From positions 1 through 29,721 of IMG/VR virus record IMGVR_UViG_3300045135_001623: a stretch of DNA of 29,721 nt, one strand, 5' to 3'. Each line of letters opens with the position of its first letter. The first letter of the stretch is position 1. The DNA is from a virus. Both the position numbers and the translations under genes were made by a program. The notes beneath the pieces were generated by a model, which worked only from the letters and a program-made list of their open reading frames with translations, searched no databases and was not told where the DNA came from. Positions 1,479-3,274 of the stretch are shown piece by piece.

Positions 1479-1507
1479 ATTGTGCCAGATCAACAATCAA
1501 AGCACAA
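1479..1507 (-). promoter_or_regulatory. Minus-strand promoter of the Cys-rich gene unit
   Basis: On the minus strand TTGTGC (1507-1502) and CACAAT (1484-1479) are separated by exactly 17 bases. The spacer carries GATTGTT at its positions 4-10. The same layout occurs at 2656-2684 and 3246-3274. Transcription would begin about 35 bases before the ATG at 1438. Confidence 0.6.
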
Positions 1508-1524
1508 GAGAAAAGAGCGCCGCG

Positions 1525-1620
1525 CTCTGCGGCCCTGCGGCCCTGCGGCCCTGCGGCCCTGCCTCTTTTCTTTTATACTCTGCGGCCCTGCGGCCCTGCG
1601 GCCCTGCCTCTCTCTTTTAT
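1525..1620. repeat. Two-block octamer array with pyrimidine-rich separators
   Basis: Two direct blocks, 1525-1577 and 1578-1620. Each starts CTCTGCGG, continues with GCGGCCCT octamers (four in the first block, three in the second) and ends in GCCTCT followed by a T-rich tail ending TTTTAT. Sharing both octamers and tail shows duplication of a larger unit as well as octamer slippage. The array occupies the non-coding gap between promoter 1479-1507 and the gene ending at 1716. Confidence 0.85.
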
Positions 1621-1634
1621 GTGCTCGCCTCCCG

Positions 1635-1660
1635 CTCCGAGGTTCGCGGTCCTTGGTGCA
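1635..1660. repeat. (GGWCCNN)n heptamer repeat, copy 4
   Basis: Reads CTCC-GA-GGTTC-GC-GGTCC-TT-GG. It lies between the two-block octamer array and the nested inverted repeat at 1663-1704. Confidence 0.6.
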
Positions 1661-1662
1661 AA

Positions 1663-1704
1663 GGCCCAGGCGGCGAAGCCGCCAAATAGCGTAGCGCCTG
1701 GGCC
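1663..1704. repeat. Nested inverted repeat downstream of the gene ending at 1716
   Basis: A perfect 10-bp inverted repeat, GGCCCAGGCG (1663-1672) and CGCCTGGGCC (1695-1704), encloses and partly overlaps a second hairpin, GGCGGC-GAA-GCCGCC (1669-1683). The two can form alternative structures. There is no U-run, so it is not a classical terminator, but it could act as a factor-dependent terminator or mRNA stabiliser after the minus-strand gene. Confidence 0.6.
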
Positions 1705-1715
1705 GTGGTGCGTGC

Positions 1716-2078
1716 TCAGAACTCCCCGAAAGCGATGCCCTCGGCCACTATCGCGCTGGCGGTGGTGTCCTGGTCCACGAACCATTCCCGCTCGATCCGC
1801 CCAGCGCCCAGGTCCACGGTATAGTGGCCGTTGTCCCACCGGTCGCGCCAGTCTGCCTTGGCTTGCGTGACGCCCAGAGATAGCCCGCCCTCGATCCGGT
1901 TGTGAAGCTCGCCGATCAGGCGGGCCGTGGCATAGACTGCATCTCCCTTGCGCATACGCGGCGCGGCTGCCGTCACCACCTCGAGCACGGTTTCAGGGGA
2001 TCCGCCCCAGTGCAGGTAGATATATGCTGGCGCGTTGCCGCTGTGGTCTCGAATCTCGATTGTCGCACGGTTGCCCAT
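1716..2078 (-). CDS. Conserved small phage protein, 120 aa
   Basis: ATG at 2078 shares its A with the TAA of the upstream gene (TAATG), so translation is coupled. Recognisable conserved segments are MGNRATIEI, YIYLHWGGSPETV, ATARLIGELHNRIEGGLSLGV and KADWRDRWDNGHYTVDL, ending VAEGIAFGEF. I recall this protein as common in the early regions of marine alphaproteobacterial phages, without assigned function. The length is normal for that group. A mixed alpha/beta composition without a signal peptide or membrane segment suggests a cytoplasmic protein, perhaps for host takeover. Confidence 0.88.
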   Translation of the reverse strand: MGNRATIEIRDHSGNAPAYIYLHWGGSPETVLEVVTAAAPRMRKGDAVYATARLIGELHNRIEGGLSLGVTQAKADWRDRWDNGHYTVDLGAGRIEREWFVDQDTTASAIVAEGIAFGEF

Positions 2079-2239
2079 TATTCCACCTCCTCTGCTAAGC
2101 TCCAGTGTGCATCGATGCTGTGGTTCTCTGGATCCAGCTTGTCCAGCACTTCATATAGCTCCGCTAGATACAGAATCATGTCGCGGTCTTTGTAAAGCGC
2201 CTCATAATCCGCGCGTGCGGCGTGAATAAACTTCTCCAT
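2078..2239 (-). CDS. Small acidic phage protein, 53 aa
   Basis: I place the start at ATG 2239 because it is preceded by GAGGAAAGACC, the leader found before neighbouring genes. The longer frame from 2305 would run through a hairpin. The peptide begins MEKFIHAARADYEALYKDRD and is mostly helical and acidic, ending LAEEVE. It is the middle gene of the 2613-1716 unit and is coupled to the next gene by TAATG. I do not recognise a function. Confidence 0.78.
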   Translation of the reverse strand: MEKFIHAARADYEALYKDRDMILYLAELYEVLDKLDPENHSIDAHWSLAEEVE

Positions 2240-2281
2240 GGTCTTTCCTCTCTGGTTAAAGATGCCTAAGCGCATCGGATG

Positions 2282-2301
2282 CCGGCCCCTTGCGGGGCCG
2301 G
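2282..2301. promoter_or_regulatory. GC hairpin between two minus-strand genes
   Basis: CCGGCCCC (2282-2289), loop TTGC, GGGGCCGG (2294-2301): a perfect 8-bp stem between the stop of the gene at 2314 and the start at 2239. There is no U-run on either strand. It more likely marks an mRNA processing or attenuation site than a full terminator. Confidence 0.6.
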
Positions 2302-2313
2302 TCACCGCTACGC

Positions 2314-2613
2314 TCAGGCGTCGGCCAGGTATTCGGCGGGCGTCGGCACGCCGGGCCGGATGTCATAGGCCTCGAGCCACGCAGGTTCAGCGGCCACCAG
2401 CTGGCCATAGCGCTTCACCTCGAGCGCATAGGTGTCGCCTAGCTCGAAGCTGCCGAACGTCGCATCAGACTTGGCGGCCACGAACCACCGCGCATAGGTG
2501 TCCTCATTTTTCACCTGCTTATAGGTCTTGAGAACGTGCCAGGTCATGTCACCGGCGCGATAGATCGCATAGGGGTTTTCAGTTTTGCGTGATTTTCCGA
2601 ATGGGTTTGGCAT
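2314..2613 (-). CDS. Conserved small phage protein, 99 aa
   Basis: ATG at 2613 follows GGAAAGACCT, the leader shared by this cassette, and a promoter at 2656-2684 lies just upstream. The sequence starts MPNPFGKSRKTENPYAIYRA and contains WHVLKTYK, YARWFVAAKSDATFGSFELGD and TYALEVKRYG. I recall this arrangement (PYAIYR...W.VLKTY...YARWFVAAKSP...GSFELGDTY) from small proteins of marine phages, of unknown function. It heads the 2613-1716 unit. No membrane segment or catalytic motif is visible. Confidence 0.88.
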   Translation of the reverse strand: MPNPFGKSRKTENPYAIYRAGDMTWHVLKTYKQVKNEDTYARWFVAAKSDATFGSFELGDTYALEVKRYGQLVAAEPAWLEAYDIRPGVPTPAEYLADA

Positions 2614-2655
2614 AGGTCTTTCCTTTCATGTTAAAACAGCTGGTGCCGTGCCCCG

Positions 2656-2684
2656 AATGTATCAGAAGAACAAGCGGGGCACAA
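2656..2684 (-). promoter_or_regulatory. Minus-strand promoter of the 2613-1716 unit
   Basis: TTGTGC (2684-2679), a 17-base spacer with GCTTGTT at its positions 4-10, then TACATT (2661-2656). It lies between the stop of the gene at 2692 and the ATG at 2613 and matches the promoters at 1479-1507 and 3246-3274. Confidence 0.65.
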
Positions 2685-2691
2685 GCTTTGA

Positions 2692-2988
2692 TCAGATCCA
2701 GACAAACTTGCGAACGCTGGTCGACTTGTGATCGCGCTGCCATGCATCAAGGCCGTGCAGTTTGATATACTCGGCGCGGTTCGGCGCGGTCTCGCGCTTG
2801 CCGATGTCGTGGCGTGCCAGCCCCAGCGTCAAAGCCGCCTCGCGCAGCGCATCCTGGCGCTTGCCAAGCTCGCGCTTTAGCTCGTCGAGAATCTCGAGCT
2901 GGTCGCGGATGTCATCAGCGACGGTCGGTTGCGCGATTGCGTTCTGAAACGTGGTGCTCGCGCGGCGAAGGGTTGTTACGTTGCTCAT
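2692..2988 (-). CDS. Helical phage protein with coiled coil, 98 aa
   Basis: ATG at 2988 is preceded by AAAGGAAAGAACA. After an N-terminal MSNVTTLRRASTTFQNAI, residues about 25-60 form a charged helix (DQLEILDELKRELGKRQDAL) likely to be coiled coil. The C-terminal part reads RAEYIKLHGLDAWQRDHKS and ends VRKFVWI. I do not recognise the family. It is the second gene of the rightmost minus-strand unit, separated from the first by a strong hairpin. Confidence 0.8.
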   Translation of the reverse strand: MSNVTTLRRASTTFQNAIAQPTVADDIRDQLEILDELKRELGKRQDALREAALTLGLARHDIGKRETAPNRAEYIKLHGLDAWQRDHKSTSVRKFVWI

Positions 2989-3012
2989 TGTTCTTTCCTT
3001 TCGTTTGGTGGT

Positions 3013-3032
3013 GGCGGGGGCGAACCCCCGCC
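3013..3032. promoter_or_regulatory. Strong GC hairpin between two minus-strand genes, terminator-like on the plus strand
   Basis: GGCGGGGG (3013-3020), loop CGAA, CCCCCGCC (3025-3032). On the plus strand it is followed by GTTTTATT, as in an intrinsic terminator. On the minus strand, where the genes run, no U-run follows. It may attenuate or stabilise mRNA between the genes at 3039 and 2988, or stop antisense transcription. Confidence 0.65.
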
Positions 3033-3038
3033 GTTTTA

Positions 3039-3194
3039 TTATGCGAGCTTGTCGAACTCGGCGATCAGCTGATCATAAACCTTGGCGGCTTCCTCATCGC
3101 GGCCCACGCTCAGCATCATGATCATGAACTCGAGCTTAAACTTGAGGCGGTTGCCAGTGCTTTGCTCGGGTGCGGTATTGCTTTCGTTTGTCAT
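3039..3194 (-). CDS. Small helical protein, 51 aa, first gene of the minus-strand block
   Basis: I choose ATG at 3194, which follows AAAGGAAGACCTT; the longer frame to 3263 would overlap the promoter. The peptide has an N-terminal polar stretch (MTNESNTAPEQSTGNR), then a hydrophobic Met-rich helix (KLEFMIMMLSVGRDEEAAK), and ends VYDQLIAEFDKLA. The Met-rich helix is amphipathic rather than clearly transmembrane. I do not recognise a function. As the promoter-proximal gene it is probably made early. Confidence 0.75.
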   Translation of the reverse strand: MTNESNTAPEQSTGNRLKFKLEFMIMMLSVGRDEEAAKVYDQLIAEFDKLA

Positions 3195-3245
3195 AAGGTC
3201 TTCCTTTGTTAAGAGGGCCGCGACCATCGCTGCCCTACATCCAAG

Positions 3246-3274
3246 GATGTATGCCAGCAACAAGCAGAATACAA
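3246..3274 (-). promoter_or_regulatory. Minus-strand promoter of the rightmost unit
   Basis: TTGTAT (3274-3269), a 17-base spacer with GCTTGTT at its positions 4-10, then TACATC (3251-3246). It is about 50 bases upstream of the ATG at 3194. Two TTGT half-sites 11 bases apart recur in all three minus-strand promoters. Confidence 0.65.

Follow-up and report, generated by a model that had tools for sequence, protein, structure and literature searches.

A phase-locked TTGT repeat at three putative promoters of a small-gene block in a marine phage family and a candidate ribbon-helix-helix regulator

The DNA analysed here is a 29,721-nucleotide virus record (IMGVR_UViG_3300045135_001623; hereafter the window, meaning the whole stretch), which has no close relative among isolate genomes. 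By TerL, the nearest isolates are phages 023Pt_psg01 and DSL-LC04 and the Pelagibacter phages HTVC027P and HTVC023P, at 52–59% identity, and the family comprises at least 599 TerL-encoding stretches. Neither a T4-like early promoter nor a T4-type phage was recognized in the window, the closest TerL proteins being those of 023Pt_psg01, DSL-LC04 and HTVC027P. The minus strand near the left end carries a block of small genes. Reading leftwards, these are a 51-residue gene (3039–3194; homologues in 20 loci), which is the first after the site termed P1, a 98-residue gene (2692–2988; 26 loci), a 99-residue gene behind P2 (2314–2613; 78 loci), a 53-residue ORF with no homologue among the fetched loci (2078–2239), a 120-residue gene (1716–2078; homologues in L137, L010 and L138) and the gene behind P3 (746–1438). 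The last encodes 230 residues from the ATG at 1438, is extended to a 244-residue ORF starting inside P3, and matches phrog_2554 (E = 8e-60), a widespread, conserved protein with invariant cysteines and relatives in 148 phage records. The order of the cassette genes varies between relatives (for example L068 compared with the window). No homologue of the 99-residue or 244-residue-ORF genes was found in the bacterial genomes searched, which therefore pointed to neither a host nor a prophage. At 212–277 and 1527–1620, between genes, GCCCTGC/CTGCGGCC is repeated in tandem, and most relatives have related repeats with varying units immediately upstream of P3. A 37-residue ORF at 629–742 looks like a lone helix-turn-helix and has weak homologues in L139 and L035.

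In CRP-118 and S2B, both T7-like, the gene behind P3 is found close to the genome end, where such phages usually have their early genes. HTVC027P, a distant relative, encodes no RNA polymerase and relies on that of its host; the genes of its equivalent minus-strand block fall into separate temporal clusters, and its early genes are all of unknown function (PMC12753301). Distant as this relative is, its use of the host polymerase and its temporal clusters make transcription by the host polymerase and special early control plausible for the window. The leftward small-gene block is probably expressed early.

Three similar sites on the minus strand precede genes of this block: P1 (3246–3274; TTGTATTCTGCTTGTTGCTGGCATACATC) lies before the first small gene, P2 (2656–2684; TTGTGCCCCGCTTGTTCTTCTGATACATT) upstream of the 99-residue gene and P3 (1479–1507; TTGTGCTTTGATTGTTGATCTGGCACAAT) upstream of the 244-residue-ORF gene. 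A preliminary description of this DNA had reported three near-identical promoters here, with 17 bp spacers and two TTGT half-sites 11 bp apart, and all of these positions and distances were found as claimed. Each site combines a spacer of exactly 17 bp with a −10-like hexamer and a second TTGT at offset 11, so that the half-sites span the −35 region and the spacer (P1, 3274–3271 and 3263–3260; P2, 2684–2681 and 2673–2670; P3, 1507–1504 and 1496–1493). At P1 the −35 and −10 hexamers read TTGTAT and TACATC. By the E. coli consensus the hexamers of P1–P3 are weak, and a σ70 scan of positions 1–3600 using that consensus reported none of them; hexamers 16–18 bp apart upstream of a gene, at a position kept in the orthologues, are nevertheless present, as in promoters of the σ70 type. 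Promoter activity of P1–P3, and protein binding to them, are predicted from sequence. In the window the pattern (up to two mismatches) matches P1–P3 only, whereas in 100 shuffles it matched 0.11 times on average and never more than once. Since the pattern was derived from these three sites, this comparison is partly circular, and the pattern was therefore tried on relatives that had been collected through protein similarity and not through the motif.

The relatives comprise 64 sequences (444 kb) found by similarity to the 244-residue ORF. The motif search that the preliminary description had proposed yielded 31 matches in them, nearly all on the gene strand, versus two with the reversed pattern. 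TTGT is present at offset 11 in 13 of 24 non-redundant CTTGT-N17-TANNNT sites and at any other offset in none, and among CTTGT...TTGT pairs at offsets of 6 to 30 there are 50 at offset 11 and 1–13 at each of the others. Upstream of the 99-residue gene the offset-11 repeat occurs in 16 of 38 non-redundant regions (other offsets, 0–3; shuffle mean, 0.01), and upstream of the 244-residue-ORF gene in 22 of 57 (other offsets, 0–3; shuffle mean, 0.06). Offset 11 also holds with spacers of 16 and 18 bp, and the repeat is thus phased on the −35 rather than on the −10 hexamer. A collection scan with the 17 bp spacer pattern returned seven contigs, with promoter contexts in all that were inspected, while scans with 18 bp spacer patterns, which serve as spacing controls, gave only chance coding matches in unrelated contigs. 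The preliminary description had named equal frequency in unrelated coding DNA as one outcome that would speak against its reading. In the 690 kb surrounding TerL, where structural genes of this phage family predominate, offset 11 showed no excess, and eight unrelated or distant isolates showed no enrichment. On these sequence comparisons, the repeat in the relatives is not due to chance.

The order P1–P2–P3 itself recurs in the relatives, behind a conserved noncoding element. Typically the element is followed after about 205–240 bp by P1, then by small genes, P2, the 99-residue gene, further small genes, P3, the 244-residue-ORF gene and a convergent nuclease-like gene, and the window matches this layout, with the element core at 3450–3480. 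The core (minus strand) reads CTTGTGGTCTACTTGT followed by ACCCCAATGGAATTA and contains the same TTGT pair with no −10 hexamer. As a whole the element spans about 100 bp (3380–3480 in the window) at the divergent boundary; beside the TTGT pair it contains CCCAATGGAATTA and G-rich runs, and a role in origin function, packaging or regulation is conceivable. Direct-repeat promoters occupy the P1 position in relatives, about 205–240 bp downstream of the element. A TTGT or TTGC precedes TTGTTGAC in the P1 of many relatives, lying exactly 11 bp upstream in 15 of 59 non-redundant sites and 22 bp upstream in five cases. Many P1 promoters also carry a palindrome over the −10 hexamer and start site, the arm sequences of which differ (L070:1581, L075:5407, L085:5919 and 3232–3252 in the window). 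Upstream of the 244-residue-ORF gene, CTTG...TANNNT is kept even where the TTGT box is missing (L014, L019, L025 and L028). The repeat is thus found in two registers relative to the promoter, either at −35/−24 or, in the P1 of many relatives, just upstream of a TTGACA −35 hexamer. These two registers, together with its presence in a non-promoter element, are what would be expected of a protein-binding site rather than of a contact of the σ factor. The suggestion in the preliminary description that the motif exceeds what a σ factor needs, and that one regulator controls all three units, gains support from this and from the repetition at the same promoters in many diverged relatives; its three promoters are retained, while the conserved element upstream and the candidate regulator described below had escaped it. 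The TTGT pairs of P1–P3 are probably the common operator of a single regulator.

P2 lies within a hairpin (2648–2682, minus strand) that the preliminary description, right about the promoter, had missed. It starts 9 nt after the stop codon of the 98-residue gene and consists of an 8 bp outer stem, GTGCCCCG/CGGGGCAC, and an inner pairing of TTGT with ACA (fold z = −5.06); the stem begins inside the −35 hexamer and closes after the −10 hexamer. In ten diverged sites with a P2-type hairpin, 98.3% of the cells are paired and six pairs have changed on both sides. The covariation score is 0.552, compared with 0.202 when shuffled and at most 0.18 when slid, and an independent permutation of the arms gave 64.8 ± 6.0 Watson–Crick pairs against the 101 observed. 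The cells that pair otherwise are G–U on the gene strand, which suggests that the structure acts in RNA. Since the expected P2 RNA would start at the end of the right arm, the hairpin would form only in RNA reading through from the upstream gene. Stable hairpins (z < −2) directly follow the 51-residue gene in 11 of 13 non-redundant cases, the 98-residue gene in 10 of 10 and the 99-residue gene in 21 of 34. The one after the stop codon of the 51-residue gene in the window (3013–3032, minus strand; GGCGGGGGTTCGCCCCCGCC; z = −3.70) has no promoter. Its loop is CAACAA in some relatives and the inverse TTGTTG in others (L017, L010 and L095 versus L021, L137 and L142), as if it had flipped between inverted arms. 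P2-type hairpins with a full stem and a shortened loop without the −10 hexamer occur at L031:1123 and in the L075:5943 region. An Rfam search gave no match, and an intrinsic-terminator scan of 1–3600 reported none at the P2 hairpin, the loop of which exceeds the length limit of the scan and which is not followed by a T run. Leader hairpins similar to those in relatives follow P3 (1440–1473, minus strand; GGGCAATTCCGCCC, then TTTT) and P1 (3195–3245, minus strand; GGGCAGCGATGGTCGCGGCCC); attenuation or mRNA protection is possible.

No regulator was found among the small-gene families of the block. Longer relatives encode, several kilobases downstream, a conserved protein of 52–57 residues (G001, G004, G007, G019, G020 and G014, with a fragment in L012); its gene is absent from the window, a 29.7 kb fragment. 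The best matches of this protein are to an Arc-like PHROG (2e-4) and to Pfam RHH_5 (1.3e-4, below the cut-off of that family), both of them weak profile matches to the ribbon-helix-helix (RHH) fold. An AlphaFold2 model of the monomer is one long helix with no PDB match, and the fold assignment therefore rests on these profile matches. Directly before the start codon of most homologues lie three or four half-sites with an 11 bp period. With a scoring matrix derived from the sites in the promoters and the element, three-copy arrays are present at the gene start in four of the six homologues, where they rank 1, 2, 2 and 4 contig-wide, and the partial L012 copy also has phased half-sites; the G001 gene has no three-copy array and G014 at best a weak two-copy match. 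When 416 gene starts were ranked, the top six included three RHH genes and one P3 gene, and at the RHH start only period 11 gave a positive score. The arrays overlap the A-rich ribosome-binding region. RelB, an RHH protein, recognizes [A/T]TGT[A/C]A hexads, two of its dimers sitting on one face of the DNA (PMC2812701). The co-occurrence of gene and repeat is incomplete: G019 has the RHH gene, yet no repeat promoter at its 244-residue-ORF gene, and no RHH gene was found in some contigs with repeat promoters, for example G003 and G022, which may simply be truncated. That this small protein binds the TTGT repeat is a reasonable but still doubtful proposal. High-scoring half-site arrays near a 94-residue rightward gene, TerS and a helicase-like gene (4724–4754 in the window; L075:1664; L046:5462; L127:13129) may indicate further targets. 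The array in the window (plus strand; score 13.3) consists of three copies with an 11 bp period, CTTGTG, ATGTAG and CTTGCA, over a TTGACA promoter before the 94-residue gene; it is not conserved in most relatives, and the target is tentative.

Alternatively, the TTGT pair might be bound by a host regulator, through which the phage would sense the state of its host; a parallel is CtrA with its TTAA-N7-TTAA boxes in other phages of alphaproteobacteria. The CtrA box has the same 11 bp direct-repeat geometry and is used by phages (PMC9437464), and the distant relative HTVC027P depends on the host polymerase (PMC12753301). The half-site is, however, TTGT rather than TTAA; all classes of site have TTGT or TTGC, which led to rejection of the CtrA box. 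CenR (TGA-N8-TGA) and ChvI (TTGC-N3-GCAA) motifs do not fit either, and the LexA box (GTTC-N7-GTTC) was matched by one of 45 non-redundant sites. With other Roseobacter phages also lacking the enrichment, we regard a host regulator as unlikely. Similarly improbable is an activator that would replace a good −35 hexamer. It could be the winged-helix-like phage protein of 155–161 residues, whose gene immediately precedes the RHH gene in several contigs, or some other, so far unseen, protein of the phage. Weak hexamers (by the E. coli consensus) with half-sites at −35/−24 do resemble activator-dependent promoters, the placement being comparable to that of the T4 MotA box, which is centred at −30 (PMC2988021), and a winged-helix gene occupies this position in L035, L046, L012 and L147. 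On the other hand, the G001 version is poorly conserved, the TTGACA promoters that carry the repeat would need no activation, and the phased array between the winged-helix gene and the RHH gene fits autoregulation by the RHH protein better. Two winged-helix proteins of G001 were considered as regulators and set aside; among the fetched loci one had no match except itself, and the other matched only weakly elsewhere.

The repeat might also have no regulator at all. TTGT at −24 would then be just the left hairpin arm, paired with ACAA in the −10 region, or a leftover of promoter copies that recombination has spread. Such pairing does exist in P2-type sites, but TTGT is kept in promoters that have no hairpin and in those with TATTCT −10 hexamers (L012 and L070), as well as upstream of TTGACA promoters and in the conserved element, which makes this explanation very improbable.

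We therefore prefer an operator read by a protein of the phage. Host RNA polymerase with the housekeeping σ factor would read P1–P3 through −35 CTTGNN and −10 TANNNT hexamers, and the paired TTGT half-sites, offset by one helical turn (11 bp), would serve as the operator of one regulator governing how strongly, or when, the entire leftward block is expressed, the small genes of which are probably early. The likeliest regulator would be the Arc-like RHH protein of 52–57 residues encoded several kilobases further along in related phages, which would probably repress its own gene too, as Arc does. Repression seems a somewhat better reading of its action than activation. A GC-rich hairpin often follows the stop codon between genes, with the promoter placed inside it at P2. 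Taken as a whole, the explanation by host-σ promoters with a tandem TTGT operator of a single regulator, most likely an RHH protein, has in our judgement an even chance of being correct. More tentatively, the family may possess a previously undescribed early regulon, in which an autoregulated Arc-like RHH protein acts on a conserved promoter trio with 11 bp-phased TTGT half-sites, some of the promoters being built into the covarying hairpin that closes the preceding gene, such that each small gene is a portable unit with end signal, promoter and shared operator. Small accessory genes of unknown function, grouped in blocks, account for much of the genomes of marine phages, which raises the question of how newly gained ones are brought under phage control. 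An operator conserved across this family at a co-regulated block would make that question testable, would provide a sequence handle for early host-takeover genes in uncultured phages and comes with a concrete candidate regulator for a phage group that includes the distant relative HTVC027P.

A close known system is that of Arc and Mnt of phage P22, small RHH repressors with operator subsites in tandem, about one turn apart, in the −35/−10 interval of early-type promoters and with sites at their own gene. The present system resembles it in having a small phage RHH candidate and half-sites in tandem, roughly a turn apart, both at the presumed target promoters and, in four of six homologues, at the gene of the candidate itself; it differs in its TTGT direct repeats, in the several promoters across a cassette block and in the weak profile similarity, binding here being predicted. 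The sites of λ CII, a lysogeny regulator, are TTGC-N6-TTGC direct repeats flanking a weak −35 hexamer. Direct tetranucleotide repeats with a weak −35 are thus shared, but the CII offset is 10 bp, the position relative to the −35 hexamer is another and no CII homologue was identified here. The promoter early stem-loops (PeSLs) of T4 are mobile regulatory cassettes. In common with the present cassettes, they join a host-type promoter to a stem-loop between small accessory genes, the order of which varies among relatives (PMC4503421), while the phage family is unrelated and the promoter sequence is different; in the present case the hairpin encloses the promoter, and an operator is added. The CtrA boxes TTAA-N7-TTAA are likewise 11 bp direct repeats at alphaproteobacterial phage promoters (PMC9437464), whereas the half-site here is TTGT and there is no CtrA consensus. 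In the E. coli RelB operator an RHH protein recognizes TTGT-like hexads, with both of its dimers on a single face (PMC2812701), but the RelB half-sites are palindromic, 12 bp in size, and belong to a toxin–antitoxin context. What appears to be new is the combination of an Arc-like operator with promoter–stem-loop cassettes, conserved in a large uncultured phage family.
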